A stretch of DNA of 16,751 bases from Allosphingosinicella sp. GTDB taxonomy: Bacteria > Pseudomonadota > Alphaproteobacteria > Sphingomonadales > Sphingomonadaceae. The notes below the pieces were generated by a model, which did no database searches, was not told where the DNA came from, and worked only from the letters and a program-made list of their open reading frames with translations. A program made the translations under genes and the position numbers. Positions 1,280 to 16,751 of the stretch are shown in pieces (the first letter of the stretch is position 1; each line of letters begins with the position of its first letter). The DNA lies in NCBI GenBank assembly GCA_030146745.1, contig JASLBD010000060.1:1-16751 (forward strand), in the 5' to 3' direction.

Positions 1280-2308
1280 TCAGGCGTCCACCTTTGCCGG
1301 CTCCTTGGAGGCGGTGGCGAGGAGCCTGCGCGGCCGTAGCGGGCGGGGGAGGGCACGGGAGGCCGGGCGGAAGCGGGGAAGATCCCGGACGATTTCTTCG
1401 TTTTGCGGGTGCAGCGTGCCGAACAGCCTGTCCCATAACGTGAAGAACACCGCATAGTTGAACACATAGTCGCGGTGGTGGAGGTTGTGGTGGGTCCCGA
1501 AGGCGATCCAGGAGAAGCGGCGCGAGTCGGTGATCATCCTTGGAAAGAATTCGACATTGGCGTGGCCGATGGCGGATCGCGCAATCGCCAGGACGGAGAA
1601 TGTTACCAGGACCAGCGGGGACAAAGGCAGCAGTACCCCGATTCCGATGACGAACGGCATTGAGGCCAGCTGCTCTATCGGCGACAGCTGGAACTGGGTA
1701 AGCGGGTTCGGACTGGTGCTGAAGTGGTGCACGGAATGCACATATCTCCACAACGGGCCCCAGTGGAGGGCGCGATGGACGGCATAGAAATAGCCGTCGT
1801 AGAGCACCAGCATGAGCGCCAGGCCGAGCGCGAAGTCACCGGGGCCATGGGCGCCCGAATCCATGTTCATCCTCAGCCCGGCCAAGTGCACGGCCAAGGC
1901 CCCGATCGTCGCGGTGACCGCCGCCGACCACAGCCAGACGGTGCTGAACATCAGCTCATGCCGGAGCTGCCGCCAAGTCAGCCGGGTCGGCTGGATCGGG
2001 CCGCGGAGGCGCCATAGGGCATGGGCCGCGCCGAAGAGGAAGGCGGCCAGCAGGAATCCGCCGACGATGCTCACCACGAGCGCATAGCCGCTTCGGACGC
2101 TCGACTGCCAAAGTGCCTGAGCTGCCGCCAAAGCGCCTTCCCAGGACGCGATATCCCCGGGATTGAGCGCCAGCATCATCGCAAGCAAGGCGGCAGTCAG
2201 AGCCGCCGCGATTCCCGTCTGGAGGAAGAGATGCTGCCGCACCTCGAGATCGGCCGGGGCATTCGCGCCCGGATCCTGCTCATGCCCGCTCGTTTTCCAT
2301 TCAGCCAT
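1280..2308 (-). CDS. Membrane di-iron hydroxylase, sterol desaturase / fatty acid hydroxylase superfamily
   Basis: 342 residues. Integral membrane enzymes of this superfamily use a histidine-bound di-iron centre to hydroxylate or desaturate lipids, sterols or carotenoids. The histidine boxes are intact: HRALH (178-182), HSVHH (191-195), a lone His at 249 (IGHANVEFFP) and HHNLHH (273-278). Hydrophobic stretches lie at about 28-50, 72-98, 118-145, 157-176 and 210-245. The start ATG has a good ribosome-binding site, GGGGGA, about eight nt upstream. It follows the FkbM/FkbH synthase gene after a 279-nt gap on the same strand. It may modify an acyl chain or lipid moiety of the cluster product, or an independent membrane lipid (inference); the substrate cannot be read from the sequence. 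The C-terminal 35 residues are Arg/Pro/Ala-rich and probably cytoplasmic. Confidence 0.88.
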   Translation of the reverse strand: MAEWKTSGHEQDPGANAPADLEVRQHLFLQTGIAAALTAALLAMMLALNPGDIASWEGALAAAQALWQSSVRSGYALVVSIVGGFLLAAFLFGAAHALWRLRGPIQPTRLTWRQLRHELMFSTVWLWSAAVTATIGALAVHLAGLRMNMDSGAHGPGDFALGLALMLVLYDGYFYAVHRALHWGPLWRYVHSVHHFSTSPNPLTQFQLSPIEQLASMPFVIGIGVLLPLSPLVLVTFSVLAIARSAIGHANVEFFPRMITDSRRFSWIAFGTHHNLHHRDYVFNYAVFFTLWDRLFGTLHPQNEEIVRDLPRFRPASRALPRPLRPRRLLATASKEPAKVDA

Positions 2309-2587: not shown

Positions 2588-5500
2588 TCATCCTTCCCCG
2601 GACCCAATCAGCTGGCCGAGATGGCCGATGAGCCTGCCCATGAGCGCTTCGGCTTCGGGACTCGCCAAGGTGCCCGGCCGGCACTTCAGAACGAGGACGA
2701 GCCCTTCTCCATCCTCGAAGGCGTCTATTCCCAGCGGGGCGAGGCCGACCTGCGGGGTGAGCCCCATCAGTCGCGCGTCGCCGGACCCGAGGGTGAAGGG
2801 GTCGGACACCTCGCCATCGGGGAGTAACCTCAGGATCGGATCGGAAGCGAGGTGCTCGTGATAGGCGAAGGTCGTGCTGATGTCGTCGCCCGCAATCGCG
2901 CCCGACTCACCCGCGTGAACTCCGGCCAATGCGTTTCCAATCGTCCGGTGCACGTCCTGGACCAGACGGTCGAAGTTACGGTCGCACCCGCCTATCTGCA
3001 GCCTTGCCAGGACCGCGAAGTTGCCGACCGTGTCGCGGTGAAGCGCTGGGTCCCGCAACGAGACGGGCGTCCCGACACCCAGCTCCGTCTGGCCGGATTC
3101 GCGATGGACGAAGGAGGCGAAGCCGGCGAGCAGCGCGGACAGCGGGGAGACTCGGCGGCGCGCGGCGGCGGCGGCGACATTCCCTTCCGGCCCGTGCGGC
3201 AGCCGCCCGACGACGACGGCGACGGGGTTTGCCTCGGCCATCGGCCTGTCCCAGCCGCCGCCGCTTGCCTTTGCCCACCAAAGCGGGATGCGGTCGCCGC
3301 CGCCGGATTCAGGCCGCCGGCCGGGTCCGCCGGGCGGCGCCGGCGCTGCGGCCGCGAACTCGGCATAGGCCGATGCCGAGGCTGCGGGAGCAGTCGCTTC
3401 CGCGCCCGCCAGTTTCTCGCCGAAAGCGCTCAAGATGATGCTCAGAGACTGGAAGTCCGCGACCATATGGTGGACCCGAAGCACCACCAGGCACCGCTTG
3501 TCCGGGAGCGTCAGGACGTCGATGCCGACGGGCGACCGGCCGAGGTCGATCGGGTCCTTGCTCCGCCGCCGGACATAATTGAAGGCGTCCTGAACATCCC
3601 AGATCGCGCCGTCGAGGAAGCGCCAGGCGGAGATCGACTCCGGCGAGGCAGTGGCGACCGAACGCCGCCCGTCGAGCCGGTAGGTTGTTCGCAGCAGCGC
3701 GTGCTCGGCGCAGACGGCCTCCCACGCGGCCCGGATCGCTTCGGGATCGGGCGCCGGATCGAGAAGCAGCGGAACGAGGGTCACATAAAGAGACGAGCGC
3801 GGATTCTTTTGATGCTCGAACCACAGCGCTTGCTCGGGCGCGGACAGGTTGCGGTCGCCCTCGCTGGCGAGTGCCGGTATCGTTGACCGATCCGCGTTAG
3901 CGGAAACCCGGTCGCCCAGAGCCGCCGCCATCCCCCGAATGGTGGTTGCCCGATACGCCTCCTTGATGCTGAGTTGGCGATATCCCCGCCGCCGAAGGTC
4001 CCCGATCACCTGGACGAGGCGCAACGACGTTCCGCCGATGCTGAAGAAGTCGATATCGATGCTTGCGACAGTTCGGCCGAGAGCGTCTTCCCATACTCGC
4101 GCGACCTCTCGCTCCGCCTCGCTCCCTTCGATCTGCGCTCTTGGGCCGCGATATTTCGGCCAGACCAGCCCGGCGATCGATTTGGCGGTACGGGCTGCCT
4201 GCAGCCGCTGAAGCAGCCATTGCTCGTCGCGATATCGGTCGTCCAGGACCGTCGTGTCACGAGTCGCGACCGAAGCCGCAGCGGAGGGCTTCAAGGCGAA
4301 CCATTCGTCCAGGTCCCGCAGCCGCGCCTGAACGGCCTCGTCTGCGGCAATTCGGGCCAGCGAACTTCGCTCGTCGATCTCGCCGATTGCCCGCACGAAC
4401 GCCATCGCGGGTTCGTTGCGGTCGGTCCGCCGGCAGTGCAGCTCGACCTGACCATGGCCGAGTGCCTGCGCATCCTTCAAGACGTGGAGCAGCATCTGCT
4501 GCTCGACGCCTCGCCCGAGTGCACGGCAGCTCAGGAGGAACTGGTCGACGCAATAGCGTCCTGCCGTCGAGCCGGCGATCAGGCCGACGGTGCCGTAATC
4601 GCCGAACTTGTCGCGCGCGGCGACCTTCCATATGCGCTCGCTGCCATTTTCCATCCTCGCGCGAAGCACCGCTTCCGGCTGGACCCGAGGATGAAGATTG
4701 AACTGATTTGTCCGCCGGGTCAGCTCGGCAAGCCGCTCGACGTCAGCGAGGCCCGCGGTCTCGCATCGGACCTCCAGCCCGAGTTCCTCTACGAACCCCC
4801 TGAACGAGGCCGAATTCTGCCTGACGTCGGCTCGAGTGGCTTCCTGACGGGCGCTCTCCGTTCGGTCGATCGACGCAACCGCGCCGGGAACGCAATCGAG
4901 AGCCCAATGATGCTCGAGGATGGCCAGCGCTTCGTCCTGGTCGTGGGGGAAGCGGATCACCAGCGCAGCGGGAAAAGCCGCCTGGACTTCCGCACACTCG
5001 ATCTCGTTGTCGTCGATGAAGATCAGGGAGTCGGCATTCAGCCCAAGCTTCCGGAGCACTGCCGCGGCGTTGGCCGACTTCGCTTCCCAATTGACCTCGA
5101 CCGCGACGAAATCATCGCGGTGGGCAAGCATGCCCGGCCGCTGTTCGAATACCTGCCAAACGTCCTCCGGTACGTTCTTGCTGAGGAGCACCAGGAGGTG
5201 GCCGGCCTCCTTGAGCCGCTTCAACTTGGCCTGAAGCGCGAGAGCCGCAGGGGTAAGTTCGACACCTTCGGCGCCGAGCTCCGCGCAGGCGCCCTGCCAG
5301 AGCGTATTATCGGCATCCACGGCCACCACCTTGTGTGGAAGGCGATGGCGCGCGGCATAATGCCGCAGGGCCCAGGCCCCTGCGGCGGCATACCATTCCG
5401 GAGAATAGGGGATGGCCGCTTCGCGCGCGGCTTCGTCGGATGCCGGCGACTGGACCGGGTAGGACGCCGACAGCGTCTTCCAGTCCGAGAGGTAGACGCT

Positions 5501-6844
5501 GGAGATGGTGTCGCAGGCCTCGCGCAATGCCTGGGCGGCGCGATCCAGTTGCGCTCTGACGTGATCCGATGCGGCGCCTCCGCTAGTATACGGCCCGACG
5601 ATGAGATGGACCGGCAGGCTGGAGCGGGTCCGGAACGCCCGCAGAGCGGCCTCGAATGCGTCGACCCGCTGGCGAAGTCCGAGCAAGGTGGGATGAGACG
5701 CGGGCTGAGTCCTCTCGTGGGAGGCGCCCGGGCGGACCGCATAGAGGAGGGAAAGACCTGAATTCTCCAGATGGGGGTCTACCGCCGAAGTGAGCTGGAA
5801 GCCGTTCGCGGCAAGGTGCCGCCGGATCCAGCCGCTCTCGTCACCATCGTCATCATGCGTCTCCACGACGATCTGCCGGATCCTCGGCCAGTGCTCCGCG
5901 CGGATGCCGCGCAGGATGGCGGCTTCACTATGCTCCGCGTCAATCTTGAGCAGGTCGACGACCTCGAGGGCGTACTCGTCGATGACATCGGAGATGGTCG
6001 TCATCTGCACGTCGGCGGCGACTGCATTGAGCCGGTCCCCCACGAACTCGGCCGCGAGCGGGGCCGCGGTCTCGACGCCACTCGCACCCATTTCGTTCTG
6101 GATGGCGGCCTCGAGCGCCTTGCGGTCCCTCCCAATGTCTGCGTGGAACCCGGAGAAGACGGTGGCCCCCTCGTAATGGGTGAAGCGCTGCATGCCCGCG
6201 CGCTCGCCGACGCCCTGCTGCAACACTGTGGCGCGCCCGCGGCCGCTTAGGTTCGCAGAGCAGATCTTCGCGGTGACCGGGGAGGGCTCGATCGCAACGA
6301 CTCTCGCATCGGGAGAGTGGCTGAGAACGAACAGCGAAAAGATGCCGATGTTCGCGCCGACGTCGATCACCGCGGCAGTGGACGGCAGGCTGATAAAGGA
6401 CGGGAGATAATCCGCACGATCGAAGATCTCGCCGTAAAGATAGTTGGTTTCATATCCGTGCAGCTCCATGATCTGCTGCCCGTTGGGGAGGAACCCGGCT
6501 GTCGCGCCGACCGCCCGGGCGGCTTCGCAGGCGGTCTGATCGGCCAGCTCGTCCCGGCGGCACCAGTCTTCGAGGGACAGAAGGAGGAGGAGCTCACGGG
6601 CCGTCTCGGGCGGTGCCCCGGCCTGCCCATGCAGGCACTGCAGGACATGGTCGAAGGGCGCGCTCGACAGGGCGATGCCCAGATCCCCGCCGAGCGAAAG
6701 CATGACTTCCTGGAGCAGCTCGATCGAGAAGTTCGCTGCTGCGTGGATGGCATGAGGAGTCCCTCGCTGCGGCTCCAAGCTTGTGGGACTCACGTCTCCG
6801 CTGCCTTCGGGTTCGGCTCGTCGCGCCGGGTAAGCGGAGTCCAT
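2588..6844 (-). CDS. Fusion synthase: FkbM methyltransferase - FkbH (HAD + GNAT) glyceryl transferase - PCP - condensation domain
   Basis: 1418 residues from the ATG at 6844, 2 nt after the stop of the small membrane protein; longer in-frame starts would overlap that gene. Residues 120-370 form an FkbM methyltransferase: PNGQQIMELHGYET, the SAM loop VIDVGANIGIFS (159-170), and VDLLKIDAEHSE (296-307). Residues 400-850 are FkbH-like: HAD loop VDADNTLWQG (Asp510, Asp512), LLSKN (553-557), NWEAKSAN, FIDDN (609-613), then the GNAT-like part with RTNQFNL and LLSCRALGRGVE (Cys773). The FkbH family binds 1,3-bisphosphoglycerate, dephosphorylates it and loads glyceryl on a carrier protein. Residues 908-978 are a PCP (FFSIGGTSL, Ser940). 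Residues 998-1418 are a condensation domain with HHMVADF (1125-1131) and a complete C-terminal half. No A domain is present, and the chain ends in C with no acceptor PCP. Glyceryl loading of the internal PCP is inferred from the domain order. Confidence 0.92.
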   Translation of the reverse strand: MDSAYPARRAEPEGSGDVSPTSLEPQRGTPHAIHAAANFSIELLQEVMLSLGGDLGIALSSAPFDHVLQCLHGQAGAPPETARELLLLLSLEDWCRRDELADQTACEAARAVGATAGFLPNGQQIMELHGYETNYLYGEIFDRADYLPSFISLPSTAAVIDVGANIGIFSLFVLSHSPDARVVAIEPSPVTAKICSANLSGRGRATVLQQGVGERAGMQRFTHYEGATVFSGFHADIGRDRKALEAAIQNEMGASGVETAAPLAAEFVGDRLNAVAADVQMTTISDVIDEYALEVVDLLKIDAEHSEAAILRGIRAEHWPRIRQIVVETHDDDGDESGWIRRHLAANGFQLTSAVDPHLENSGLSLLYAVRPGASHERTQPASHPTLLGLRQRVDAFEAALRAFRTRSSLPVHLIVGPYTSGGAASDHVRAQLDRAAQALREACDTISSVYLSDWKTLSASYPVQSPASDEAAREAAIPYSPEWYAAAGAWALRHYAARHRLPHKVVAVDADNTLWQGACAELGAEGVELTPAALALQAKLKRLKEAGHLLVLLSKNVPEDVWQVFEQRPGMLAHRDDFVAVEVNWEAKSANAAAVLRKLGLNADSLIFIDDNEIECAEVQAAFPAALVIRFPHDQDEALAILEHHWALDCVPGAVASIDRTESARQEATRADVRQNSASFRGFVEELGLEVRCETAGLADVERLAELTRRTNQFNLHPRVQPEAVLRARMENGSERIWKVAARDKFGDYGTVGLIAGSTAGRYCVDQFLLSCRALGRGVEQQMLLHVLKDAQALGHGQVELHCRRTDRNEPAMAFVRAIGEIDERSSLARIAADEAVQARLRDLDEWFALKPSAAASVATRDTTVLDDRYRDEQWLLQRLQAARTAKSIAGLVWPKYRGPRAQIEGSEAEREVARVWEDALGRTVASIDIDFFSIGGTSLRLVQVIGDLRRRGYRQLSIKEAYRATTIRGMAAALGDRVSANADRSTIPALASEGDRNLSAPEQALWFEHQKNPRSSLYVTLVPLLLDPAPDPEAIRAAWEAVCAEHALLRTTYRLDGRRSVATASPESISAWRFLDGAIWDVQDAFNYVRRRSKDPIDLGRSPVGIDVLTLPDKRCLVVLRVHHMVADFQSLSIILSAFGEKLAGAEATAPAASASAYAEFAAAAPAPPGGPGRRPESGGGDRIPLWWAKASGGGWDRPMAEANPVAVVVGRLPHGPEGNVAAAAARRRVSPLSALLAGFASFVHRESGQTELGVGTPVSLRDPALHRDTVGNFAVLARLQIGGCDRNFDRLVQDVHRTIGNALAGVHAGESGAIAGDDISTTFAYHEHLASDPILRLLPDGEVSDPFTLGSGDARLMGLTPQVGLAPLGIDAFEDGEGLVLVLKCRPGTLASPEAEALMGRLIGHLGQLIGSGEG
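3911..4132 (-). other. PCP domain inside the FkbM/FkbH fusion
   Basis: Approximate limits: residues 905-978 of the fusion protein. The phosphopantetheine site reads FFSIGGTSL with Ser940, instead of the GGDS found in the four NRPS carrier domains of this window. Helix 1 (EREVARVWEDALG) and the helix 3 region (IKEAYRATTIRGMAAAL) are recognisable. The different core sequence fits a carrier dedicated to the FkbH domain rather than to an amino-acid loading enzyme (inference). Confidence 0.8.
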
Positions 6845-6846
6845 GG

Positions 6847-7134
6847 TCACCGACGGTCTTTCCGCGTCCCGCGAGCGCTCTTCAGGGCACGGTCCTCGAG
6901 CGCCTTGGGCGTCATGTTGGGGTTCAGGAGCTTGAAGTAGGCGATCGCCAGGGTAAGGACATAGATGCCCAGGAAAAAGCCCGCGAAGATCAGATATTCT
7001 CCCGAAACACCGCGAACGACACCGACAATCGCCACAATGACAAGTGCGACCACGAAGCCGAGGGCCTCGAGCCAAAGCGATCGGGCCGCCTTGAGCTGCT
7101 TGCGCTCCTGTCGAGCTTCTCTTTCCCTATCCAT
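6847..7134 (-). CDS. Small two-helix membrane protein, unknown function
   Basis: 95 residues. The N-terminus is highly charged (MDREREARQERKQLKAAR). Two hydrophobic helices follow, about 24-41 (LGFVVALVIVAIVGVV) and 47-68 (YLIFAGFFLGIYVLTLAIAY), joined by a short loop, then a basic C-terminal tail ending KDRR. Both tails are probably cytoplasmic by the positive-inside rule. The start at 7134 is chosen because GGAG sits about eight nt upstream and the longer in-frame alternative adds low-complexity Arg-rich sequence reaching back over the hydroxylase gene. It lies between the CmlA-type hydroxylase (57-nt gap) and the FkbM/FkbH synthase (2-nt gap), so it is made with the pathway. I do not recognise the family. 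Possible roles are a membrane tether for the synthase, a transport accessory or self-protection; none is shown by the sequence. Confidence 0.75.
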   Translation of the reverse strand: MDREREARQERKQLKAARSLWLEALGFVVALVIVAIVGVVRGVSGEYLIFAGFFLGIYVLTLAIAYFKLLNPNMTPKALEDRALKSARGTRKDRR

Positions 7135-7190
7135 GTTCTTCTCCGTTGCTTGTTCACGGCGGTTGGAATTGGCCGCGCGACTTCGGCGGC

Positions 7191-8789
7191 TCAGGCTGCG
7201 AGCAAGAGCTTTTGGCCGTACAGCCGCTCGGCGCCGAGACCGATTCGGAGGCATTCGGTTACGAGCTTGTCCGATTCCACGATCGGCCGTGATTGGGGCG
7301 TGTATTGGATGCTCGACAGATAGGTCAGCCACGGCTCCTGACCCATCGCATAGACGAAGACCGATTTGGGCTTGATGCACCGGACGAGCTCAAGCGCGCC
7401 CGCATAGTCCGAGCCGTTCAGCCGCCGCGACTGATCTAGCTTCCGATCCACCGGCCGTCCGAACAGGGGGCCGTACAGCCATGACATCGGTGCGCCGTCG
7501 CATTCCATTCCGAGGAACAGATAATCGACCGGTCCCACCGCCCGGCTGACATGCTCGTAGAGTTCCGGCTGGAGATTGTTGGAATCGGCCGCGCAGATGA
7601 AGCTGTGGCCGCCGAGCCGGACGTAGAAGCCGAGCTTGGTCAGCACATGCAGGTCGCCATGCTCGCCGAGGAAGGGGACTCCGATGATCTGGCCGCCGTC
7701 GACGTCGATCGTGTCGAGTTCGCCCAGTTCGATCACGTTGTCGAACCCCGCCGCCATGAGAGCCAGCCGGAGCGAAGGATCCTGGATCTGCCCGCCATTG
7801 TTGCGCGGCACCACGATGGTCCCGATGCGCGGCCTCATCTGCAGGAGGGTCTCGATCGACACATGGTCCTGGTGCGTATGGGTGATGAGGACGTAGTCGA
7901 TTCGATCCGGCAGATCGTGATGGGTGTAGCGGTCGATGCCCGCAGTGACCGGATAGCTGACCACTGGATCTGTCATGATCGTCACCGATTTGCTCTCGAA
8001 GAGCACCGTCGCGTGGCCGAAATAACGGACCCTGACGCCATCGCCGCGGTAATTCCGGTCGGGCCGATCGGCCGGCGGGGTCTGGTGGAAGAAGCTGCGC
8101 AGGCGGTCGCGGCCGTCCGGCGTGGCGACATGATCGACAAGATCGTCCACCAGGGATCGGGGCCCGCCGCTAGTGCGGAAGTTGGCGAGCCCGTCGACTA
8201 GAGGAGAAGCGAACGGGACCTGCGCCACCGGCTCGTTGGGTGCCGCGAGGCGAGGGGTGCTCAGGATGAAGGGCCGGTCGTCCGCGTCGCCTTCGGAGAA
8301 GAGAAGGCTCTGCCGGCCTGGATCGTAATATCGGGTGCGGTACATCAGGCCTTCAATAAGCCGCAGCGAGGGCCTGTGATGAAGGTCGTAGCCGAGCTCG
8401 ACGAGTCCGCGAAGCGCCGCCGGGACCCGCGGGTACCAATCGACGAGCGAGGAGCCGTTGGCTTCCCTGTTCAGCTCCTCATCGAACGACGTGATTGCCT
8501 CCGCGAGCTCCAGCAGCGGCGCTGCGCTGGCGCGGGTGCGCTCCATAAACTCGCGGACGGACTCGGCGCTGCCCTCATAGTCCATGAACGGGCCGCCGCG
8601 CATGGCCGGGTTGCGGGCGGCGGCGCGATGAAGGTCGGGCGCCGACGCGAAGGATTCGAGAATCCGAAGGTGCAGGTTGCGAGTCGTCAACGCCGCCGTG
8701 GCCGGCGAGATGAGGAATGGCCATGCGTACCATTCGCCGATGGTGGGTTCCATTCGGACGTTGTCGGAAAGATAGAATTGCTGGGTCAT
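7191..8789 (-). CDS. CmlA-type diiron beta-hydroxylase (metallo-beta-lactamase fold)
   Basis: 532 residues from the ATG at 8789, the same length as chloramphenicol CmlA as I recall it. CmlA enzymes use a carboxylate/histidine-bound diiron centre on a metallo-beta-lactamase fold to beta-hydroxylate an aminoacyl group held on an NRPS carrier protein. The N-terminal 240 residues match the CmlA helper domain (WYAWPFLISPATAAL at 20-34; DLHHRPSLRLIEGLMYRT at 135-152). The C-terminal domain has HTHQDH with His304, His306, Asp308 and His309; Glu376 in LGEHGDL; and Asp402 in AADSNN. These fall one residue before the CmlA ligands as I recall them (305, 307, 309, 310, 377, 403). FrsH of the FR900359 pathway is a related example. 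The ATG overlaps the thioesterase stop (ATGA) and has GGAG nine nt upstream; longer upstream frames are antisense or overlap noise. The substrate is probably an aminoacyl-PCP of this assembly line (inference). Confidence 0.92.
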   Translation of the reverse strand: MTQQFYLSDNVRMEPTIGEWYAWPFLISPATAALTTRNLHLRILESFASAPDLHRAAARNPAMRGGPFMDYEGSAESVREFMERTRASAAPLLELAEAITSFDEELNREANGSSLVDWYPRVPAALRGLVELGYDLHHRPSLRLIEGLMYRTRYYDPGRQSLLFSEGDADDRPFILSTPRLAAPNEPVAQVPFASPLVDGLANFRTSGGPRSLVDDLVDHVATPDGRDRLRSFFHQTPPADRPDRNYRGDGVRVRYFGHATVLFESKSVTIMTDPVVSYPVTAGIDRYTHHDLPDRIDYVLITHTHQDHVSIETLLQMRPRIGTIVVPRNNGGQIQDPSLRLALMAAGFDNVIELGELDTIDVDGGQIIGVPFLGEHGDLHVLTKLGFYVRLGGHSFICAADSNNLQPELYEHVSRAVGPVDYLFLGMECDGAPMSWLYGPLFGRPVDRKLDQSRRLNGSDYAGALELVRCIKPKSVFVYAMGQEPWLTYLSSIQYTPQSRPIVESDKLVTECLRIGLGAERLYGQKLLLAA

Positions 8790-9685
8790 TGTCCGGCTCC
8801 TTGTCGAAGAAGAAAGGCTGGCTTCACGGAGGATTCGATCGACCTCAGAACGGCTTCGGCCGTGCGTTGCCCATGTTCCCCGGTCAGAAGGTCGGAGTGC
8901 CCGCAGTCGACGGCGCAGCTGTCGAAGCCGCCGAGCGCGGTCTCCCGCCACATCGCTACGGTCCGATCGGAGATCCCACCCCGAAGGGCCCGGACGCAAA
9001 GGATCCGGGCACGAAGCCCGACGGGGACGTGCTGTGCCGACAGGCGCACGCTCTGCGTCAGCCGGCGGCGCGCTTTTGCAAGCCGCTCTCCGTTCAGGCC
9101 GGCCACGGCTTGGCTCTGCAGGGTCGCATCCAGCACGGCGGCCGCCGCGTTCCCGCTCGCCGCATCGGCCAGGGCTCGAGCGTCGGGTGGGATTCGACTG
9201 TCGAGAAGCGCAACGAGGCGAACGGTGACCCCCATTCGCTCCAGATGCGCCGCCACGGCGTGGGCCAGCACCCCGCCCAGGGACCAGCCGATCAGCACGA
9301 GCCGGCCGCTGCGGGAAAGGTCGATGAGCGCCGAGGCGCGACTGGCGGCAAAGGCATCGAAGCTTTGAAATTCCGTCTCGACGGGGGTCGGGTCTTCCCT
9401 TGGCGCGAGCCCGTACAAACGCAGAGACTTTCCGAGCCGCTCAGCGAGGTGCTGGTAAACCGCGATTCCGCCGGCGCCGGTATGGACGAAGCAGGCCGGC
9501 TGCCCCTCCTCCGCCCCGCCGAGTCGCACAACCAGAGCGTCGGCCGAGCCTCCGTGCGACGGGACGGCGCCCCCGCCGCTGGCGGCCGCCTGAAAATTCA
9601 TCGGCCGCCTGGCGTCCGGCGCCGCGAGTCGCCGCTGGATGGCTTGGCGAAGACGGTCGTTCGGCTGCAGGGCAAAGTCGGTCAT
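8786..9685 (-). CDS. Stand-alone alpha/beta-hydrolase thioesterase of the NRPS line
   Basis: 299 residues. NRPS thioesterases release the finished peptide by hydrolysis or cyclisation, or, as type II editors, clear misloaded carrier proteins. Seen: the oxyanion-hole region CFVHTGAGG (65-73), YGLAPRED near 91, the nucleophile elbow GWSLGG (133-138, Ser135), a likely catalytic Asp162 in LLDSRIP and His263 in CGHSDLL. The first 60 residues are a low-complexity extension. The overall pattern, including RLVALLDSRIP, is closer to the releasing TE domains at NRPS C-termini than to short type II enzymes (inference). The ATG at 9685 overlaps the stop of the upstream NRPS (ATGA), with GGAG eight nt upstream. 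This looks like a terminal TE separated from its synthetase by a gene break with coupled translation. Confidence 0.9.
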   Translation of the reverse strand: MTDFALQPNDRLRQAIQRRLAAPDARRPMNFQAAASGGGAVPSHGGSADALVVRLGGAEEGQPACFVHTGAGGIAVYQHLAERLGKSLRLYGLAPREDPTPVETEFQSFDAFAASRASALIDLSRSGRLVLIGWSLGGVLAHAVAAHLERMGVTVRLVALLDSRIPPDARALADAASGNAAAAVLDATLQSQAVAGLNGERLAKARRRLTQSVRLSAQHVPVGLRARILCVRALRGGISDRTVAMWRETALGGFDSCAVDCGHSDLLTGEHGQRTAEAVLRSIESSVKPAFLLRQGAGQ

Positions 9686-12600
9686 GCCTCGATCTCCGCT
9701 TCGGCACACAGGGCCGCGGCGGCCTCGACCACTAGCCCGCTCCACGCCCCGCCGCTGGCGAGCGCCTCTGCAAAGCCGGAGAGCGTCGGGTGCTTGAAGA
9801 TCAGGACGAGCGGGATTTCGGTCCCGAAAATCTCCTCGAGCTGCGCCACCACCCGCAGCGCCCGGATGGAATCGCCGCCGGCCCTGAAGAAGTCTTGGTC
9901 CGGCCCCAGCGTGCTCGCTTCCAGCGCTTCGGCCCAGACCGCGGCGACGACACGCCCGACATCGCGAGCGCCGTTCGGCGGAGCCTCGGCGACCGGACTC
10001 CACGACGAGCTGCCGCTGGTGGCCGCCATCGGCTCGTTGGCCTTGATCACGAGGGCGTCGGTTTCGGGCACCCAGCTGTCTGAAAGCGAAGAGCGGAGTC
10101 GGTCATGGACGGCGGCGGCCGCGTCGGGGGCGCCATCGGAGCGTACCCACAATAGCAATCGCGGATCGGCACCCGAAGCGTCGAGATCGAGGACGGCACG
10201 CTCGACGCCGGGCGTCGTCTCGGCGACGAACTCGATCGCATCCATCTTGATCCAGCGGCCGCCGGCCAAGGGAACCCTGCCGGCCGCACCGTAAATGACG
10301 ACCCCACCATCGCCGGACATCCGGCCGACGAGACCGGTCCGGAAGGCACGCATTCCCGACCCACCCGGGGCCGGGCAGAAGCGCTCGGCCGTCATCCGGG
10401 AAGCGCCGCGGTATCCCCAGGCCAGACCGGCCGCCTCGACGAGGATTTCGCCGACGGTGCCGATGGGAGCGGGCCCGCCGTCGGAGCCCATGACCCGTAG
10501 GGACGACCCTGGGAGCGGCCGTACGACCGGCAAGGCGCCGGTTGGCTCGCAAGTAGAGGAGGCGAGTTCGAAGGCCAGCCCTGTTTCCGGGCTGCCGAAG
10601 AGGTAGCGGCGGCGGCTCGCCATGTTGCCCGCAGCCGCCCAAACCTGCCCCGGCGCCGGCATTGCCCGCTCGAGCAGTCTGAAGCACAGCTCCGCCCTTG
10701 GATCCTCCGGCACGGCGTCGGACCAGAGCCCGCGCTCGTTGCCCGCCAGGCCCAGGTCCGCGAGAGTGAGCGTGAGCAATATGCGGGAGCGCCAGTCTGC
10801 GGGTCGCCTTACCTTCAACGAATCCGAGTCGGCCATCGCGCGCAGCTGTTCGGCAGACCTGGACCAGGCGGTGCGCGAGAGCATCAAAGTGCCGTCCGCC
10901 TCGCCGGCCAAGCCAAGCGGCCAGGCGGTGTCGCGCAACGCAACCTCGGCCAATCTGTGATCCGGCTCCCGCGAGGCCGGCGCCACCGCGCGCTCTTCGG
11001 CAGCGGCTGCGCTTAGGCGGGATGCGAGGCGGAACTCCAGCGGGCGGTATCGCGAGGCCGCATTGCGCACACTGAGACTCAAGTCGCCGGATCTATCGGA
11101 GCACGTGCTGCCATTGCAGCGCGGCAGTGACAGCTCTTCGCCCGATTCCTCCGCCGCGATTTCGAGCAGAGCCGTCTCGAGGTTTGTTCCGCCGGGATGG
11201 CTCGGCACATCATCAGCCGACGGCTGCCGCACTTGATCAATTGCCTCGCCGCCCGGGTCGTCCCCCGGTCGAACAATCAACGCACCGCCATGGAAAATGA
11301 GGAGGTTGTTGAGCTCTTGCACGTAAAGGTCGCGCACGGTCTCGGCGTAGCGCGAATAGCCTGCGGGTGCGTCGAACACGCCGATTAGGCCTCCGCCCTC
11401 GGGGTCGCGCGAGAAGTGCATGACGAAGCCAAGGCTCGATTTCGCCATCCCGTCGCGACGGACCACTCGGAGCAGGCACTCCCCGGCGCCCCCGGGAGCA
11501 TTGTGGAAACGGGTGTAGTTGAAGGCGACGGCAAAGACGCTCCTGCCGCCGGCGAGCGCCTGGATGCGGCTCAGCGGAAAGCGCCGATAGGGAAGGATGG
11601 CCGATTCCTGATCGAAGCAATGACGCGCCAACTGGCTCCAGGTGCGGCCTGCGCCATCCGCCCATACCGGCACCGTGTTGAGGTACATCCCCAGCGCGGT
11701 GTCGCCGCCCTCGCCCTCGGGGCGGCCGTTGAAGACCATTCCGGTGACAACGGAATCGTCTCCCGTCATCCTTCCGAGAACCCGCACGTGCCAAGCCAGC
11801 AGCAGCGATTTGAAAGGAACGCCCCATGCGTCAGCGATCGACTGAAGCAGGTCCGCTTGTTCCCGGCCGAGGGTGAAAGCCGAGCGGCCGGGGCGCAAAT
11901 CGTCCGGTGCCGGCGGGGGCATGTCCAGAACCGCTGGGCGCCGAAGCCGGTCGGCCCAGAATTGAACGGCATCGGAATCCGATACGCTGAGCCGCTCCAG
12001 CGCAACGAAGTCCCGGTGCGGGCTTGGCTTCAGCTCGGTCGTGCGTGACGAACCCTGCTCGCGCTCTTCGTAGCGGTCGAGGATGAACCGCACGAGCATC
12101 GATTCGCTCCAGCCGTCGAGCAACGCGTGGTGAAAGCTGAAGCAGAGCATGCATTCCTGCGTGTCGAGCGCATCGATGCGGACCCGAAACGGCGTCCCCT
12201 CGGAAAGTTCGAAGCCACGCTCCAGCTCCGCGCGCGTCCAGCGCTCCAGCGCCTCATCCCGGGATTCGGAGTCGAGGTCCCGCAGGTCCGTCACGTCGAC
12301 TTGCACCCGGGGCCGGCTCCAGACGAGCTGCAACGGTTCCGAATAGCTGGTCAGGTCGAGCGTGGTGGCGAAAACCTCGTGCTCGGCGAGCACGTCCTCG
12401 ACGGCCGCTCGCAACCCCTCGACACGGTAGCGGCCGGCCAGCCGGTAGCGGATGATGTCGTGATAGGTGCCCGAGCGGTCGAGGCGCGAGTGATAGACCA
12501 TGCCGGCTTGGAGGCCGCTCAGCGGGTAAGCGGCCACGACGCCGTCCGGCAGGCGGCAGCGGTCCGCGGCCGCGACGAGATTGAACGGGCCGGTCGCGGT

Positions 12601-14805
12601 GCCCTCGTCCGGGCCTGCGCTTCGGCTCAGCGTGGCCGACGCCAGGGTCCGGATCGTCTGATGCTCGAACATGTCTTCGACGGCGAGGGGGATTCCGGCG
12701 CGCTGTGCGATCGCCTGCACCTTGAGGCAAAGGATCGAATCGCCGCCGAGCGCGAAGAAATTCTCGTTCAGGTCGGGGAGGCCGCAGCCGAGGGCCGAGC
12801 TCCAAGCCTCCCGGAGCACCGTCTCGATCTTCGCACGGGCGGCGGTGTCGGCGGCCGCGGCTGGCGGGACAGGCACCGGCCGCAGGTCGCTCAGGTGGGA
12901 CTGGGAAACGGCAGGCGCTTCGCCTGGCTCGGGAAGGAGCTGGAGCGGGCGGCCCGGCAGCGCCAGCATCCGCCCTCGAAGCCCCGTCCGGAACATCCTC
13001 GACCCGGGCGGCCCTTCCGCCTGGGCCGGCACGAAGTTTTCCGCCGTCCGCCTCGCCGCCTCGGGATAGCCGTGACCAAGGGTGGGGCCGCCGAGGCAAA
13101 TCTCGCCGACCGCACCGAGGGGCTGCGGCAGGCCGTTTGGGCCGAGGACATAGGCTTCGGCACCGCCCATGACCTGCCAGAGCTGCAGACCCTCGCCGTC
13201 CGTTCGTTGCAGGCAGTAGCCCGTCTCCGGCCGGCCGAGCAGGATCGGCGCCGCTGCGTCGGCAGCCCCCTCCGCGGCGATCCACCCCGGGGGCAGCCAG
13301 AGGTGTCCAGCTTGCAGGGCGGCGTCTGCCGGCGCCGACGCGCGGGGGCCCCGGACCAGCTTGTGGCGCGGGCCGGAAACCGCTTGGTCTTCCTCGGTGA
13401 CGAGGTCCAACTCGGCGATGAGCGCCTCCGGGTTACGGATCAGGCGCTCAAGCGCCGAGCGATAGCCTCGAACGAGTCCTTCGGCATGAGACGGCGAGAT
13501 CCGGCCGGGCGGATATTCCAAGTTGAGCCGCCACCCGTCGCCGTCCGGGAGCAGAGTCATGAGGATGTCGAAGCGCGCCGCCGGAGTGCGGATCGCGACC
13601 GGCTCGATCCGAAGCTTGCCCCAGGAGGCCTCCGCAAAGACGCCGGGGGATGCGTTCTGGAGCGTGAACATGGCCTGGCACAAGGCGGCCTCGCCGCCGC
13701 GCTCGGCACCCAGGGTCGAGGCAATCTGCTCCCACGACACCTCCGGCAGGTCGAGAGCGGCGAGGAATCCTTCCTGCAGCTCACGAGCGAGGCTCGAAAA
13801 GGATTTTCGGAGAGGACAGCGAACCGCGATCGGCAGTGTGCTGGCGAAGCAGCCGATCAGCCCTTCGCACTCCTCATGGTCGCGTCGCGCGACCGGGGTG
13901 CCGATGAGAAACCGTTCCTGCCCGGTATAGCGGCTGAGCAGGACCGCATAGGCCGCGATCAGCGGCGCGAAATCCGTGGTGCCGATCGACCGGCCGAATT
14001 GGCGGACTTGGCGGCGCAGCTCCGCGTCGAGCCCTCCGGCGGCGTCGGCGCCGAGGGTTGGTGCAACGGACCCGGAGTCCGCAGGGATTCGAAGCGGCGC
14101 CGCCGCATCGCCGATCGCTTCCCTGTAGAAGCGCAGCGTTTCAGCGGACTGACGCGCGCTCGCCTGGACCTGCCAGGCCGCATAATCCGCGAACTGGAGC
14201 GGGAGCGGCGGCAGCTCCCCTTCGTCCAGATACAGCGTCCGCAGCTCGTCCAGGAGGATCGGGACCGACCAGCCGTCGCAGGCTATGTGATGAAGGATGA
14301 GGGAAAGCACATGCACTTCCGCAGAAGTGCGGAACAGTGCGGCGCGGAGTGGCGGCTCCCGTTCGAGATCGAAAGGCGAGGTGTAATGTTCCTGAAGCCG
14401 CCCCGTCAGGTCCGCCGGGTCGAGATCGACGGCGGCGAGGTTTGAAGCCGCGGTCGGCAGGATCCGCTGCTCGGGCTCGCCTTCGACGGCCGGAAACACC
14501 GTCCTCAGGATCGAGTGGCGCTCAACGATCCGGTCGAGCGCCGAAGACATCCGCTCGACGCTGAACTCGGACCCAAGGAACTTCAAGACGATCGGCAGGT
14601 GAAACCCGGCGGAGGAGGAGCCGCGCAGCCGCGAATGAAGCCACAGGCTGCGCTGGGCCAAGCTGAGCGGCGCCCTCTCGCGCATGCCATGGACCTCGAT
14701 GCACGAGGCGTCCGAATATTCCTGTCGAAGCGTCTCGAGAGCATCGCCCTCGTCGGCGGCGCCTCCGCCCGTTACGCTTCTCTTTCCTGCCAATTCTTCA
14801 AGCAT
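9682..14805 (-). CDS. NRPS with two modules and two non-functional A-domain remnants: C-(A*)-PCP-C-(A*)-PCP
   Basis: 1707 residues, one uninterrupted frame. C1, about 44-475: PLSLAQRSLW, HHIACDGWS (172-180) and GTPVARRDHEECEGLIG; it resembles LCL-type condensation domains. A-remnant 1, about 515-640. PCP1, about 655-725: FFALGGDSI, Ser690. C2, about 748-1175: AYPLSGLQAGMVYH, HHALLDGWS (892-900), FNYTRFH; a second C subtype, shared with the upstream protein. A-remnant 2, about 1200-1598. PCP2, about 1612-1685: FFRAGGDSI, Ser1646. Both condensation active sites and both phosphopantetheine serines are intact, so condensation should work while adenylation should not. The start at 14805 lies 14 nt after the upstream NRPS stop and has only a weak ribosome-binding site; Met41 is an alternative start. 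The stop overlaps the thioesterase ATG. Amino acids must be delivered to these carriers in trans (inference). Confidence 0.93.
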   Translation of the reverse strand: MLEELAGKRSVTGGGAADEGDALETLRQEYSDASCIEVHGMRERAPLSLAQRSLWLHSRLRGSSSAGFHLPIVLKFLGSEFSVERMSSALDRIVERHSILRTVFPAVEGEPEQRILPTAASNLAAVDLDPADLTGRLQEHYTSPFDLEREPPLRAALFRTSAEVHVLSLILHHIACDGWSVPILLDELRTLYLDEGELPPLPLQFADYAAWQVQASARQSAETLRFYREAIGDAAAPLRIPADSGSVAPTLGADAAGGLDAELRRQVRQFGRSIGTTDFAPLIAAYAVLLSRYTGQERFLIGTPVARRDHEECEGLIGCFASTLPIAVRCPLRKSFSSLARELQEGFLAALDLPEVSWEQIASTLGAERGGEAALCQAMFTLQNASPGVFAEASWGKLRIEPVAIRTPAARFDILMTLLPDGDGWRLNLEYPPGRISPSHAEGLVRGYRSALERLIRNPEALIAELDLVTEEDQAVSGPRHKLVRGPRASAPADAALQAGHLWLPPGWIAAEGAADAAAPILLGRPETGYCLQRTDGEGLQLWQVMGGAEAYVLGPNGLPQPLGAVGEICLGGPTLGHGYPEAARRTAENFVPAQAEGPPGSRMFRTGLRGRMLALPGRPLQLLPEPGEAPAVSQSHLSDLRPVPVPPAAAADTAARAKIETVLREAWSSALGCGLPDLNENFFALGGDSILCLKVQAIAQRAGIPLAVEDMFEHQTIRTLASATLSRSAGPDEGTATGPFNLVAAADRCRLPDGVVAAYPLSGLQAGMVYHSRLDRSGTYHDIIRYRLAGRYRVEGLRAAVEDVLAEHEVFATTLDLTSYSEPLQLVWSRPRVQVDVTDLRDLDSESRDEALERWTRAELERGFELSEGTPFRVRIDALDTQECMLCFSFHHALLDGWSESMLVRFILDRYEEREQGSSRTTELKPSPHRDFVALERLSVSDSDAVQFWADRLRRPAVLDMPPPAPDDLRPGRSAFTLGREQADLLQSIADAWGVPFKSLLLAWHVRVLGRMTGDDSVVTGMVFNGRPEGEGGDTALGMYLNTVPVWADGAGRTWSQLARHCFDQESAILPYRRFPLSRIQALAGGRSVFAVAFNYTRFHNAPGGAGECLLRVVRRDGMAKSSLGFVMHFSRDPEGGGLIGVFDAPAGYSRYAETVRDLYVQELNNLLIFHGGALIVRPGDDPGGEAIDQVRQPSADDVPSHPGGTNLETALLEIAAEESGEELSLPRCNGSTCSDRSGDLSLSVRNAASRYRPLEFRLASRLSAAAAEERAVAPASREPDHRLAEVALRDTAWPLGLAGEADGTLMLSRTAWSRSAEQLRAMADSDSLKVRRPADWRSRILLTLTLADLGLAGNERGLWSDAVPEDPRAELCFRLLERAMPAPGQVWAAAGNMASRRRYLFGSPETGLAFELASSTCEPTGALPVVRPLPGSSLRVMGSDGGPAPIGTVGEILVEAAGLAWGYRGASRMTAERFCPAPGGSGMRAFRTGLVGRMSGDGGVVIYGAAGRVPLAGGRWIKMDAIEFVAETTPGVERAVLDLDASGADPRLLLWVRSDGAPDAAAAVHDRLRSSLSDSWVPETDALVIKANEPMAATSGSSSWSPVAEAPPNGARDVGRVVAAVWAEALEASTLGPDQDFFRAGGDSIRALRVVAQLEEIFGTEIPLVLIFKHPTLSGFAEALASGGAWSGLVVEAAAALCAEAEIEA
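10012..11208 (-). other. Near full-length but degenerate A-domain remnant 2 (within the NRPS)
   Basis: Approximate limits: residues 1200-1598. The A5-A7 region is clear: YLFGSPETG (1401-1409), LPGSSLRVMGSDGGPAPIGT, VGEILVEAAG, WGYRGASRMTAERFCP and FRTGLVGRM (1488-1496). TGD has become TGL, as in remnant 1. The A8 hinge region reads GRVPLAGGRWIKMDAIEF, retaining only the tail of the motif. The expected A10 lysine motif (NGKVDR) is replaced by IKANEPMAATSG (1587-1598). The segment where the phosphate loop should lie (about 1296-1310) reads LGLAGEADGTLMLS and lacks the Ser/Thr-Gly-rich loop and lysine. The first 90 residues are unrecognisable and contain CNGSTC (1230-1235). Activity as an ATP-dependent adenylating enzyme is very unlikely. 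Confidence 0.8.
12886..13263 (-). other. Degenerate, truncated A-domain remnant 1 (within the NRPS)
   Basis: Approximate limits: residues 515-640. Only the middle of an A domain can be recognised: LGRPETG (523-529) where the A5 motif would read YGPTE; AYVLGPNGLPQPLGAVGEIC (551-570); GHGYPEAARRTAENFVP (577-593); and RMFRTGLRGR (603-612), where the invariant ATP-binding Asp of TGD is Leu. The ATP phosphate loop, the substrate pocket, the hinge and the A10 lysine are absent. About 110-125 residues remain of a normal ~500. The frame is open and codon use resembles the neighbours, so this is an in-frame deletion and not a recent frameshift. Confidence 0.8.
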
Positions 14806-14819
14806 GTCGGTTCCGAGCG

Positions 14820-16751
14820 TTAGGAGGCGTGTTCCGAGACGCGGTCATCCGCGCTCGCGGCGGGGGCGGGCTTCGGCGTGCCGGAACGGAGGGGTTCGGA
14901 GGGCGCCGGGCTCAGGGTGGCGGCGTAAGCCGCGATGGTCGGAGCCTCGTACAGGCGGCCGATCTTGAGCTTGAGGCCGAGGCGCTTGCGCAGGCGGGCG
15001 TTCATCCGCGCCGCGGCGATCGAATCCCCGCCGATCTCGAAGAAATTGTCGTGCCGCCCGACGCTGGGCAGGTCCAGTACCTCGGCCCAGACCGAAGCGA
15101 GCGCCTGCTCGACCGGGCCTTCGGGCCGCTCCGTCGACTCCGCCCGCGCAATCGCTTCGTCGCCTCGCGCCATCGACGAAAGGACATTGGCTATCAGGGC
15201 GGCAAAGGCCTTGAGCGTGCCGGCCTCGTAGAGGTCGCGACGACCCGAGACCGCGCCCTCGATCACCCCGGTCGCCGGTGAGGCCTGGAAGGTGACGGTG
15301 AGCGGGAAGCTGTTCTCGGCGAAACCGGTGCGGCCCTCGATCAAGTCGGCGACGTCGAGGCCGCTCTCCGCGACGCTCCTGTAGATGTGGAACTGAGTGA
15401 AGTTGAAGAGCACTTCGAACGGGGGTTTGCCGCCATTGGCCCGAACGAGGGCGGGATAGGGATAGGCTTTCAGGGGCTCCAATCCGCACTCTTCCGCGAA
15501 GGTCCTGCGGATCAGCTCGGCCCAGGACCCGGAGGCGGCGGGGACCGTGGCCGGCAAGGTGTTGAGGAAGAGGCCGATCACGCCGGCGCCATCGGCGGCC
15601 GCTGGCCGGGCATGTACCGCGACTCCCGTGGTTACGGTCGCTTCCCCCGTCGCCAGTGCAATCGCCCTGAGCTCGGCTGCCAGAAGCACCGATTTCAGCG
15701 GAACCTGGAGCTGGCGCGCCAGGGCGGACAGCCGGCGAGCGACCTCGGCGGGAATATCGATTCCGACATGCCGCTGGACCTCGCCCTCATGGACCTCCAA
15801 GTCGGCTTCGCGGGAGCTTTCGCGGAGGATCCCGGGAAGGCGGGTGCTCGCCGCCTTGCCAAGACGGTCGCGCCACTGTCGCTCGATGCCGGCGTCCGCG
15901 AGGGCCGTCACTTCGGCCAGGACGGCGTCCGCGTAGCGCGTCCGAACCGGGGCGGACGGAAGCGGAGCCGATCCCTTCAGGAGCCGCTCGTAGCGGAGCA
16001 GAAGCTCGCTGACGAGCGTCGCCTCGCTCCACCCGTCGAGAACCGCGTGATGAAAGCTGAGGGCGAGTCGGAACTCGCTGCCGGAGACGGTCAGAACCGT
16101 CATTCGAAGCCAGGGCCATTCCTCTTCGGAAAAGCCTCGAGCCGCTTCCGCGCCGACCCATTCGCTTACGCGCCGACGCTGCTCGTCCGCATCGACATCC
16201 TCCAGGGCCTCGATCGTTAGGCCGATCTCGCCGTCCGCGTAGACGAGCTGGAGGGGGGTCTGGAAATCGGCGACGCTGATCCGGGTGCGGAGCACCTCGT
16301 GGCGCTCGACGAGCTGAGCCACGGCCGACCGGAAAGCCGACTCCTCGAAACGCCGCCTGATCGTGTAGACGACGACGTCGTTGTAGAGCGTGCTGCCCTC
16401 GTGCAGTTCGGCATGGTAGACCATTCCGAGCTGCAACTGGCCCAGCGGATAGGCGTCGACGACGCCTTTGGGTAATATCTCGCGAAGCTCCGGCGCGATC
16501 ATCGAGAAGGGTTCCGCGTGGCGCGGCCCGCGATCGTCGCAATGCTCCGTCGCCCTCGCGATCGAGGCCAGCCGGGCGACGCTCTGGCGTTCGTAAAGCT
16601 CCTTGACCGTGAACTCGACCCCGCGCTCCTGCGCCCGGGCCTTGATCTGGATGCTGAGGATGGAGTCTCCGCCGAGCTCGAAGAAGTTGTCGTGTCGTCC
16701 GACCTTGGGCACTCCGAGCACTTCGGCCCAGACGGCGGCGAGCGCTTCCTC
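14820..16751 (-). CDS. NRPS, C-terminal part: PCP-C-PCP with no adenylation domain (N-terminus off the right edge)
   Basis: 643 residues are visible; the frame is open through the right edge, so the start is outside. First PCP: AAVWAEVLGVPKVGRHDN, FFELGGDSI (Ser at visible residue 30). Condensation domain, about 85-525: AYPLGQLQLGMVYHAEL, active site HHAVLDGWS (234-242), and FNFTQFH (449-455), the same subtype as C2 of the downstream NRPS. A linker of only about 20 residues follows where an A domain of ~500 would be expected. Second PCP: SVWAEVLDLPSVGRHDN, FFEIGGDSI (Ser577). The chain ends with a Pro/Ala/Ser-rich tail of 30 residues (PAPSEPLRSGTPKP), a possible docking or spacer segment. Downstream, the next NRPS begins with a C domain, so the second PCP probably donates to it. 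Whether the hidden N-terminus holds an A domain cannot be seen. Confidence 0.9.
   Translation of the reverse strand, partial: EEALAAVWAEVLGVPKVGRHDNFFELGGDSILSIQIKARAQERGVEFTVKELYERQSVARLASIARATEHCDDRGPRHAEPFSMIAPELREILPKGVVDAYPLGQLQLGMVYHAELHEGSTLYNDVVVYTIRRRFEESAFRSAVAQLVERHEVLRTRISVADFQTPLQLVYADGEIGLTIEALEDVDADEQRRRVSEWVGAEAARGFSEEEWPWLRMTVLTVSGSEFRLALSFHHAVLDGWSEATLVSELLLRYERLLKGSAPLPSAPVRTRYADAVLAEVTALADAGIERQWRDRLGKAASTRLPGILRESSREADLEVHEGEVQRHVGIDIPAEVARRLSALARQLQVPLKSVLLAAELRAIALATGEATVTTGVAVHARPAAADGAGVIGLFLNTLPATVPAASGSWAELIRRTFAEECGLEPLKAYPYPALVRANGGKPPFEVLFNFTQFHIYRSVAESGLDVADLIEGRTGFAENSFPLTVTFQASPATGVIEGAVSGRRDLYEAGTLKAFAALIANVLSSMARGDEAIARAESTERPEGPVEQALASVWAEVLDLPSVGRHDNFFEIGGDSIAAARMNARLRKRLGLKLKIGRLYEAPTIAAYAATLSPAPSEPLRSGTPKPAPAASADDRVSEHAS
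15087..15179 (-). other. C-to-PCP junction lacking any A domain
   Basis: Between the end of the condensation domain and helix 1 of the following carrier (SMARGDEAIARAESTERPEG) there are about 20-25 residues of charged linker. An extending NRPS module normally has an A domain of about 500 residues here. No A-domain motif remains, and the frame is intact on both sides, so the module is C-PCP by design or by complete in-frame loss. Confidence 0.8.

Follow-up and report, generated by a model that had tools for sequence, protein, structure and literature searches.

Missing and remnant adenylation domains at three successive positions of a nonribosomal peptide assembly line of Allosphingosinicella

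We examined a nonribosomal peptide synthetase (NRPS) operon of Allosphingosinicella sp. on contig JASLBD010000060.1 (assembly GCA_030146745.1), which is the window of this study over its whole length of 16,751 bases. The operon runs on the minus strand in the order NRPS1, NRPS2, thioesterase, CmlA-like hydroxylase, FkbM-FkbH-T-C protein, fatty-acid-hydroxylase-family protein and HlyD-type adaptor (Table 1). At three successive positions of NRPS1 and NRPS2 the condensation (C) and carrier (T) domains are kept and the adenylation (A) domain between them is dead: two intervals hold A remnants and one is A-less. The sequence marks two of these three C domains as a dehydrating type (DHC) and the third as canonical, and the losses are shared by relatives at differing depths. 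This is probably the rear section of a peptide assembly line that amino acids enter through upstream A domains of NRPS1. Lines in which another A domain bypasses a dead or truncated one are already known, namely SidD/Nps6, sib1, albicidin and ramoplanin, and capreomycin has a module without A that is loaded in trans. The present case is a real and conserved variant of such loss, a stepwise fossilisation of A domains, at two of three positions beside a dehydrating-type C domain. The preliminary description of this DNA had overlooked the C-domain type.

A six-frame hidden Markov model (HMM) scan of the window for T, C and A domains found five carriers and four C domains. The phosphopantetheine Ser is kept in all five carriers (GGDS in four, GGTS in one). 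HHxxxD occurs in all four C domains, as previously claimed, although that of the FkbH protein has lost the Gly of HHxxxDG (HHMVADF). The preliminary description was right on these counts, on the Ser residues and on the lack of any A domain with its core motifs, but it had placed everything within 9682-16751, whereas the FkbM-FkbH protein, beyond that range, holds the fourth C and the fifth T. The window is a whole contig that begins within a T domain of NRPS1, so the absence of A domains is valid for the contig only; the A domain of the first NRPS1 carrier, if any, lies off the contig. Our A profile, built by searching 356 retrieved proteins with one Roseitalea A domain, was positive at only two sites, over 84 and 190 positions. 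Pfam AMP-binding scored 31.4 bits in two pieces, narrowly over its cut-off of 29.9, the Pfam search did not find AMP-binding_C, and TIGR01733, the NCBIfam A-domain model, gave 106.5 bits against a cut-off of 317.4.

The C-to-T intervals form the graded series first noticed by eye: about 14–20 residues in NRPS1, 180 in interval 1 of NRPS2 (with an 84-residue A piece) and 447 in interval 2 (with a 190-residue A piece). The claim of open frames with normal codon use holds in part. Reading frames are open throughout, and third-position GC is similar in the intervals (77–93%) and in C and T (80–91%); codon log-odds are weaker in intervals 1 and 2 (0.06–0.11; linker 2, 0.15) than in C and T (0.25–0.33), by a score that was trained on C-domain and NRPS1 DNA and is thus biased towards those.

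We take the A-domain motifs to be A3 (P-loop), A5 (YGPTE), A7 (TGD), A8 (GRxDxQVK) and the A10 Lys. The check proposed earlier, a comparison of the intervals with A-domain models for an intact ATP loop, TGD and A10 Lys, gave only partial A6-A7 and A5-A9 remnants; Leu replaces the A7 Asp in both, and A3 and the A10 Lys are unaligned in both. In remnant 2, A5 is degraded, yet Glu is kept in the A5 column, and the A8 Arg and Lys are lost. The control was a set of 809 full-length A domains, drawn from the same proteins plus three from Roseitalea and taken at >300 bits and >430 positions, which favours intact ones. Every one of the 809 had the A7 Asp, the A8 Arg and the A5 Glu, and 776 had the A10 Lys. 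Both NRPS2 remnants thus lack residues that adenylation would need, and neither has the features of a functional A domain (PF00501/TIGR01733). Across the seven NRPS2 members (14 intervals) the A7 Asp is absent from all 11 remnants that align there, the column being unaligned in interval 1 of P0005 and P0048 and interval 2 of P0117. The three NRPS1-type remnants lack it also (Val in P0258, Leu in P0134, Met in P0142). The predicted structure of remnant 1 (mean pLDDT 49.7) was not used. That of remnant 2 resembles A cores at low confidence (mean pLDDT 59.7, six sequences), and as the model includes T2 the top Foldseek E-values do not come from the remnant alone.

Short A pieces also occur in C-to-T intervals of other NRPSs (P0161, P0106, P0351, P0344 and P0310). 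The 96-position piece of P0161 keeps the A7 Asp and A8, like a clean in-frame deletion.

Six homologues (P0002-P0005, P0048 and P0117) have the same C-A remnant-T-C-A remnant-T order, three of them 74–79% and three 33–49% identical to NRPS2. The same two intervals are reduced in all six, with A remnants whose lengths differ between members. In the tree the seven C1 domains form one group and the seven C2 domains another (forks 94 and 99). These comparisons support A loss as a trait common to the NRPS2 family, and agree with the earlier claim of A domains decaying in a family that keeps its C-T skeleton. The reduced intervals in the homologues are not due to chance, and together with the open frames they make an artefact unlikely. 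Among four relatives, positions identical in all four make up 71–78% of C and T, 63% of remnant 1, 56% of remnant 2, and 23–50% of the linkers and the N-terminal part of interval 2.

A scan of genome contigs gave 112 relatives, of which 80 were kept, at 25–40% identity over C2. A scan of viral sequences found no relatives. NRPS2 had no match at E < 1e-120 in 397 genomes of one family, a scan that is uninformative since it held no positive. The literature, judged by titles and the starts of abstracts and with subscription papers mostly out of reach, gave no description of the NRPS2 family.

The best matches of NRPS1-C in the PDB are McyA (8jbr, 235 bits) and AmbE (7r9x, 159), the next structure scoring 100; for NRPS2-C2 the figures are 213, 155 and 101. 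The CmodAA clade, to which such domains belong, is described as having a [K/R]SVLLAAH motif and an Arg pair of C6, with the motif His in 48 of 50 CmodAA domains and at least one Arg of the pair said to be kept in each (PMC11342130, available part). NRPS2-C2, with AmbE and McyA closest, HHALLDG, KSLLLAWH and the Arg pair (YRRFPL), has the features of a DHC/CmodAA domain and is assigned to that type on this evidence and by its place in the tree. NRPS1-C agrees with this type in its best matches and tree position and keeps the motif Lys, but has Glu for the His and LysAla for the Arg pair, so that it can be assigned there only tentatively. The C domain of the FkbH protein has only a weak PDB match (54 bits).

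As a strict CmodAA pattern proved too narrow, we used a looser one, which is present in C2 of all seven NRPS2 members. It was found in 18 of 49 modules without A, 10 of 22 with a degenerate A, 218 of 967 with a full A and 0 of 2 others; these rates are biased, as the modules were collected with DHC-like queries, and the pattern overlooks some of the listed A-less domains, those of L001 and L040 among them. The SolG C domain, whose authors assign it to the dual clade, is a candidate dehydrating domain in the available part of its report (PMC10204066); a SolG model appears among the matches of the window, far under its cut-off (159 vs 2200 bits).

The nearest relative of NRPS1 among the matches listed is P0258 of Stenotrophomonas sp. 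GZD-301, with the order A-T-DHC-A-T-DHC-deadA-T. Upstream of the dead one this protein has two full A domains (578 and 540 bits), so that the carriers of the window could also be served by A domains in line. The substrate codes of the two read D,F,W..M,V,H (A1) and D,A,F..G,T,F (A2), which we take to resemble the codes for Thr and Val. NRPS1-C groups with P0258_C2, P0134_C1 and P0142_C1 at 98, and P0258 has both its C domains in the tree region of NRPS2 C2. Like NRPS1, these Stenotrophomonas and Xanthomonas proteins (P0258; P0134 and P0142) have a DHC-type C domain followed by T; unlike it, they keep a degenerate A there, of 234–248 profile positions. Searches with lengthened queries, at candidate lengths of about 632–2012 and 1980–6300 residues, had no NRPS1 homologue above 42% identity in their top 120 of 1954 and 1763 matches, respectively; fragments under 632 residues are outside both ranges, so this result says little about the contigs of P0002-P0004. 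A search with P0134 in 369 genomes of one class gave one match, at 33%.

The cluster of Roseitalea (L040, G001) combines three full A domains with one A-less T-C-T and a pair of reduced intervals. This A loss looks independent, and the C domains there branch outside both the C1 and the C2 group of the NRPS2 family. The Roseitalea sp. metagenome-assembled genome (L082, 7694-16852 and 956-5857) is a second alphaproteobacterial line of this kind. Its two reduced C-to-T intervals span about 375 and 393 residues; it also has an A-less T-C-T and an A domain into which FkbM is inserted, and a TauD-family protein lies close by. CmlA-bearing plasmid stretches of Burkholderia, Eleftheria and Janthinobacterium were set aside as of a different kind, having full-length or interrupted A domains in their NRPS frames, none flagged as missing or degenerate.

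In the reading we prefer, amino acids would enter through intact NRPS1 A domains beyond the contig end, as in P0258. The DHC domains would dehydrate residues on their donor carriers; residues without a β-hydroxyl (not Ser or Thr) would first be β-hydroxylated by the CmlA-like enzyme and the hydroxyl then removed by the DHC. The carriers behind both DHC domains would receive the chain by direct carrier-to-carrier transfer, or through condensation with an amino acid from the A domain of another module. NRPS2-T1, behind the canonical C1, would be charged from elsewhere in either case, and the coupled thioesterase would probably release the chain. Once another route fills the carriers, selection on the A domains would be lost and they would erode. 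By analogy, the FkbH-fused carrier, whose protein joins an FkbH domain with DADNT (DxDxT) to a T domain as in glyceryl-carrier loading, is probably charged by FkbH without an A domain. Since T-C-T without A is known in AmbE, NRPS2-T1 is then the only carrier that clearly calls for loading from elsewhere.

Several known systems resemble parts of this arrangement, as far as the available parts of the cited papers describe them. AmbE (Q-A-MT-T1-C2-T2-TE) dehydrates on T1 and passes the product to T2 (PMC10880069). Like NRPS2, whose C2-T2 with its dead A is followed by a separate coupled thioesterase gene, it has a terminal T-dehydrating C-T without A and then a thioesterase, and separate oxygenases hydroxylate before dehydration. 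It differs in that the thioesterase is on the same protein, the oxygenases are Fe/2-oxoglutarate enzymes and not of the CmlA type, there is one T-DHC-T unit against two here, and the available text mentions no A remnant. LgnD of legonmycin (C1-T1-C2-A2-T2-TE) resembles C1-T1-C2 of NRPS2 in its C1-T1-DHC with an A-less T1, which has a GGDSx signature and is filled from T0 of LgnB by the type II thioesterase LgnA (PMC10880069; PMC8748450).

Inactive A domains left between C and T are found in SidD/Nps6 module 2 and ferrichrome synthetases (sib1) of fungi: the SidD domain is short of about 290 residues at its N-terminus, which nearly matches remnant 2 with its start at profile position 292, and its T2 is loaded by A1 (PMC10192304), and that of sib1 is degenerate (PMC2644324). 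These are fungal siderophore enzymes for which the available text mentions no dehydrating C domain, and the line of the window has lost the A at three positions. CmnI/VioI (capreomycin, viomycin) are bacterial A-less modules like those here, CmnI being charged in trans by CmnA-A1; they are free T-C proteins, with no A remnant mentioned in the part available (PMC12400406). In albicidin, ramoplanin and enduracidin a dead A is likewise left in line, there complemented in trans; the albicidin A has low motif conservation and is not stepwise reduced, and its free-standing A-T partner is known (PMC8949500).

Against the preferred entry of amino acids through NRPS1, and against dehydration as the setting of A loss, stand several observations. 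No A domain of this assembly line is seen within the contig, and P0258 is linked to the window by one C domain (41% identity), not by gene order. At two points NRPS1-C does not follow the CmodAA motif, and with KSVLLAAE and no Arg pair its dehydrating activity is uncertain. Among C-T modules without A, 31 of 49 are also without the loose CmodAA pattern, which has misses, so the count is no firm measure of how often the two coincide. That some A losses have a cause other than dehydration is seen from the canonical C1 and from the two reduced intervals of Roseitalea, which follow C domains outside the C2 group. A stricter version of the preferred reading holds that no carrier behind a DHC domain is ever aminoacylated: T-DHC-T would be a non-elongating dehydration station passing the chain from the first T to the second, an A domain there would be useless, and only NRPS2-T1 would be charged from elsewhere. 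Both DHC-T units are C-terminal in their proteins, as in AmbE (T1-C2-T2-TE), where dehydration on T1 is followed by transthioesterification to T2 (PMC10880069, in part). However, AmbE-T2 is also loaded with Ala in trans, by AmbB (PMC4357302, in part), DHCs such as AlbB-C2 are reported to condense as well (PMC10880069), and the loss behind C1 is left unexplained. We regard this form as possible while leaning against it.

The preliminary description had loading moved to a trans-acting enzyme. A trans loader is plausible, but that one dedicated A enzyme outside the window charges all A-less carriers, in a line with no A domain of its own, appears unlikely to us. As this would predict, none of the three C-to-T intervals in NRPS1 and NRPS2 has a working A, and free-standing A-T proteins complement the dead A domains of albicidin, ramoplanin and enduracidin (PMC8949500, in part). 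No free-standing A was found by the six-frame scan in the contig, however, which ends within NRPS1; P0258 has its two intact A domains in line; and such an enzyme is unneeded by the FkbH-linked carrier and possibly by the DHC-acceptor carriers. Decay of the A domains as part of a dying, non-functional cluster would fit the eroded motifs of NRPS1-C and of the C domain of the FkbH protein, and is very improbable given the open frames, the five intact carrier Ser residues, the stronger conservation of C and T than of the A intervals among four relatives, and the sharing of the reduced state by members down to 33% identity. Misassembly or collapsed repeats could be suspected where the contig ends inside a T domain, a repeat-prone place. 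Six homologues on other contigs have the same reduced intervals, with remnants that are diverged and not cleanly deleted, and we give an assembly error almost no credence.

Beyond the preferred reading, we offer as a tentative and rather doubtful suggestion that extension modules are here becoming pure modification stations, in which a dehydrating C domain passes the chain from T to T and the idle A fossilises. The family would then be caught mid-way, with no A, an 84-residue relic and half an A in different lineages, and the C domain or the hydroxylase may still use the relic core as a platform.

The ATG of the thioesterase overlaps the NRPS2 stop codon, so the two are translationally coupled, and the enzyme may act as a detached terminal thioesterase. 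Its LLDSRIP segment we take to be type I-like; judged by this motif only, it would differ from LgnA, the type II enzyme that performs the transfer in legonmycin synthesis. The hydroxylase has the CmlA_N and metallo-beta-lactamase-like diiron domains of CmlA beta-hydroxylases, with HxHxDH, and shares 50% identity with the translation of part of a Burkholderia arboris plasmid; a search of 385 genomes of one class gave two matches, at 42–44%. Among plasmid records none covers 80% of the FkbM-FkbH-T-C protein, the best among the matches listed covering 73%. A small open reading frame at 6847-7380 overlaps the start of the FkbM-FkbH frame, and its C-terminal part is, by eye, a putative two-helix membrane protein. 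The fatty-acid-hydroxylase/sterol-desaturase family protein could possibly hydroxylate an acyl chain or the product, and the HlyD-type adaptor, with one match (46%) in 376 genomes, may export it.

Table 1. Features of the window, in operon order
Feature	Position	Strand	Evidence or detail
NRPS1: T - dehydrating-type C - T, 5′-truncated at 16751, no A between C and T	14820..16751	minus	domain search
NRPS1 first carrier, at contig end	16563-16751	minus	six-frame HMM scan
NRPS1 C, dehydrating (CmodAA) type	15153..16457	minus	HHAVLDG, KSVLLAAE
NRPS1 second carrier	14913-15110	minus	six-frame HMM scan
NRPS2: C1 - A remnant 1 - T1 - C2 (dehydrating type) - A remnant 2 - T2	9682..14805	minus	domain searches, homologues
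NRPS2 C1, canonical elongating type	13381..14682	minus	HHIACDG; best PDB matches Txo1, Txo2, TycC
A remnant 1	12961..13212	minus	profile 314-397, A6-A7 only, A7 Asp to Leu
NRPS2 T1 carrier, acceptor of C1, donor of C2	12634..12825	minus	LGGDSIL
NRPS2 C2, dehydrating (CmodAA) type	11311..12588	minus	HHALLDG, KSLLLAWH; six-frame HMM match at 11434-12531
A remnant 2	10060..10623	minus	profile 292-481, A5-A9, A7 Asp to Leu
NRPS2 T2 carrier	9760..9954	minus	AGGDSIR
Thioesterase, free-standing	8786..9685	minus	PF00975 72 bits; motifs GWSLGG, GHSD
CmlA-like diiron beta-hydroxylase	7191..8789	minus	PF18456 242 bits, Lactamase_B_2 45 bits; motif HTHQDH
FkbM methyltransferase - FkbH (HAD) - T (3917-4114) - degenerate C (2924-3847, HHMVADF)	2588..6844	minus	TIGR01686 268 bits, TIGR01444 91 bits
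Fatty-acid-hydroxylase/sterol-desaturase family protein, in operon	1280-2308		
HlyD-type adaptor	1-1056		53% identical to Sphingomonas parapaucimobilis plasmid protein (best among plasmids)

Modules that lack a working A domain tend to be encountered as finished oddities, and in this family one can set orthologous positions at several stages of loss side by side. The order of events becomes testable, that is, whether a new source for the carriers came first or the change of job of the C domain. Residue counts that genome-mining software derives from A domains go wrong for such lines, and five carriers need not imply five missing loaders. Should the DHC-T units prove non-elongating, a product with fewer residues than the carriers imply, and rich in dehydroamino acids, would be expected.

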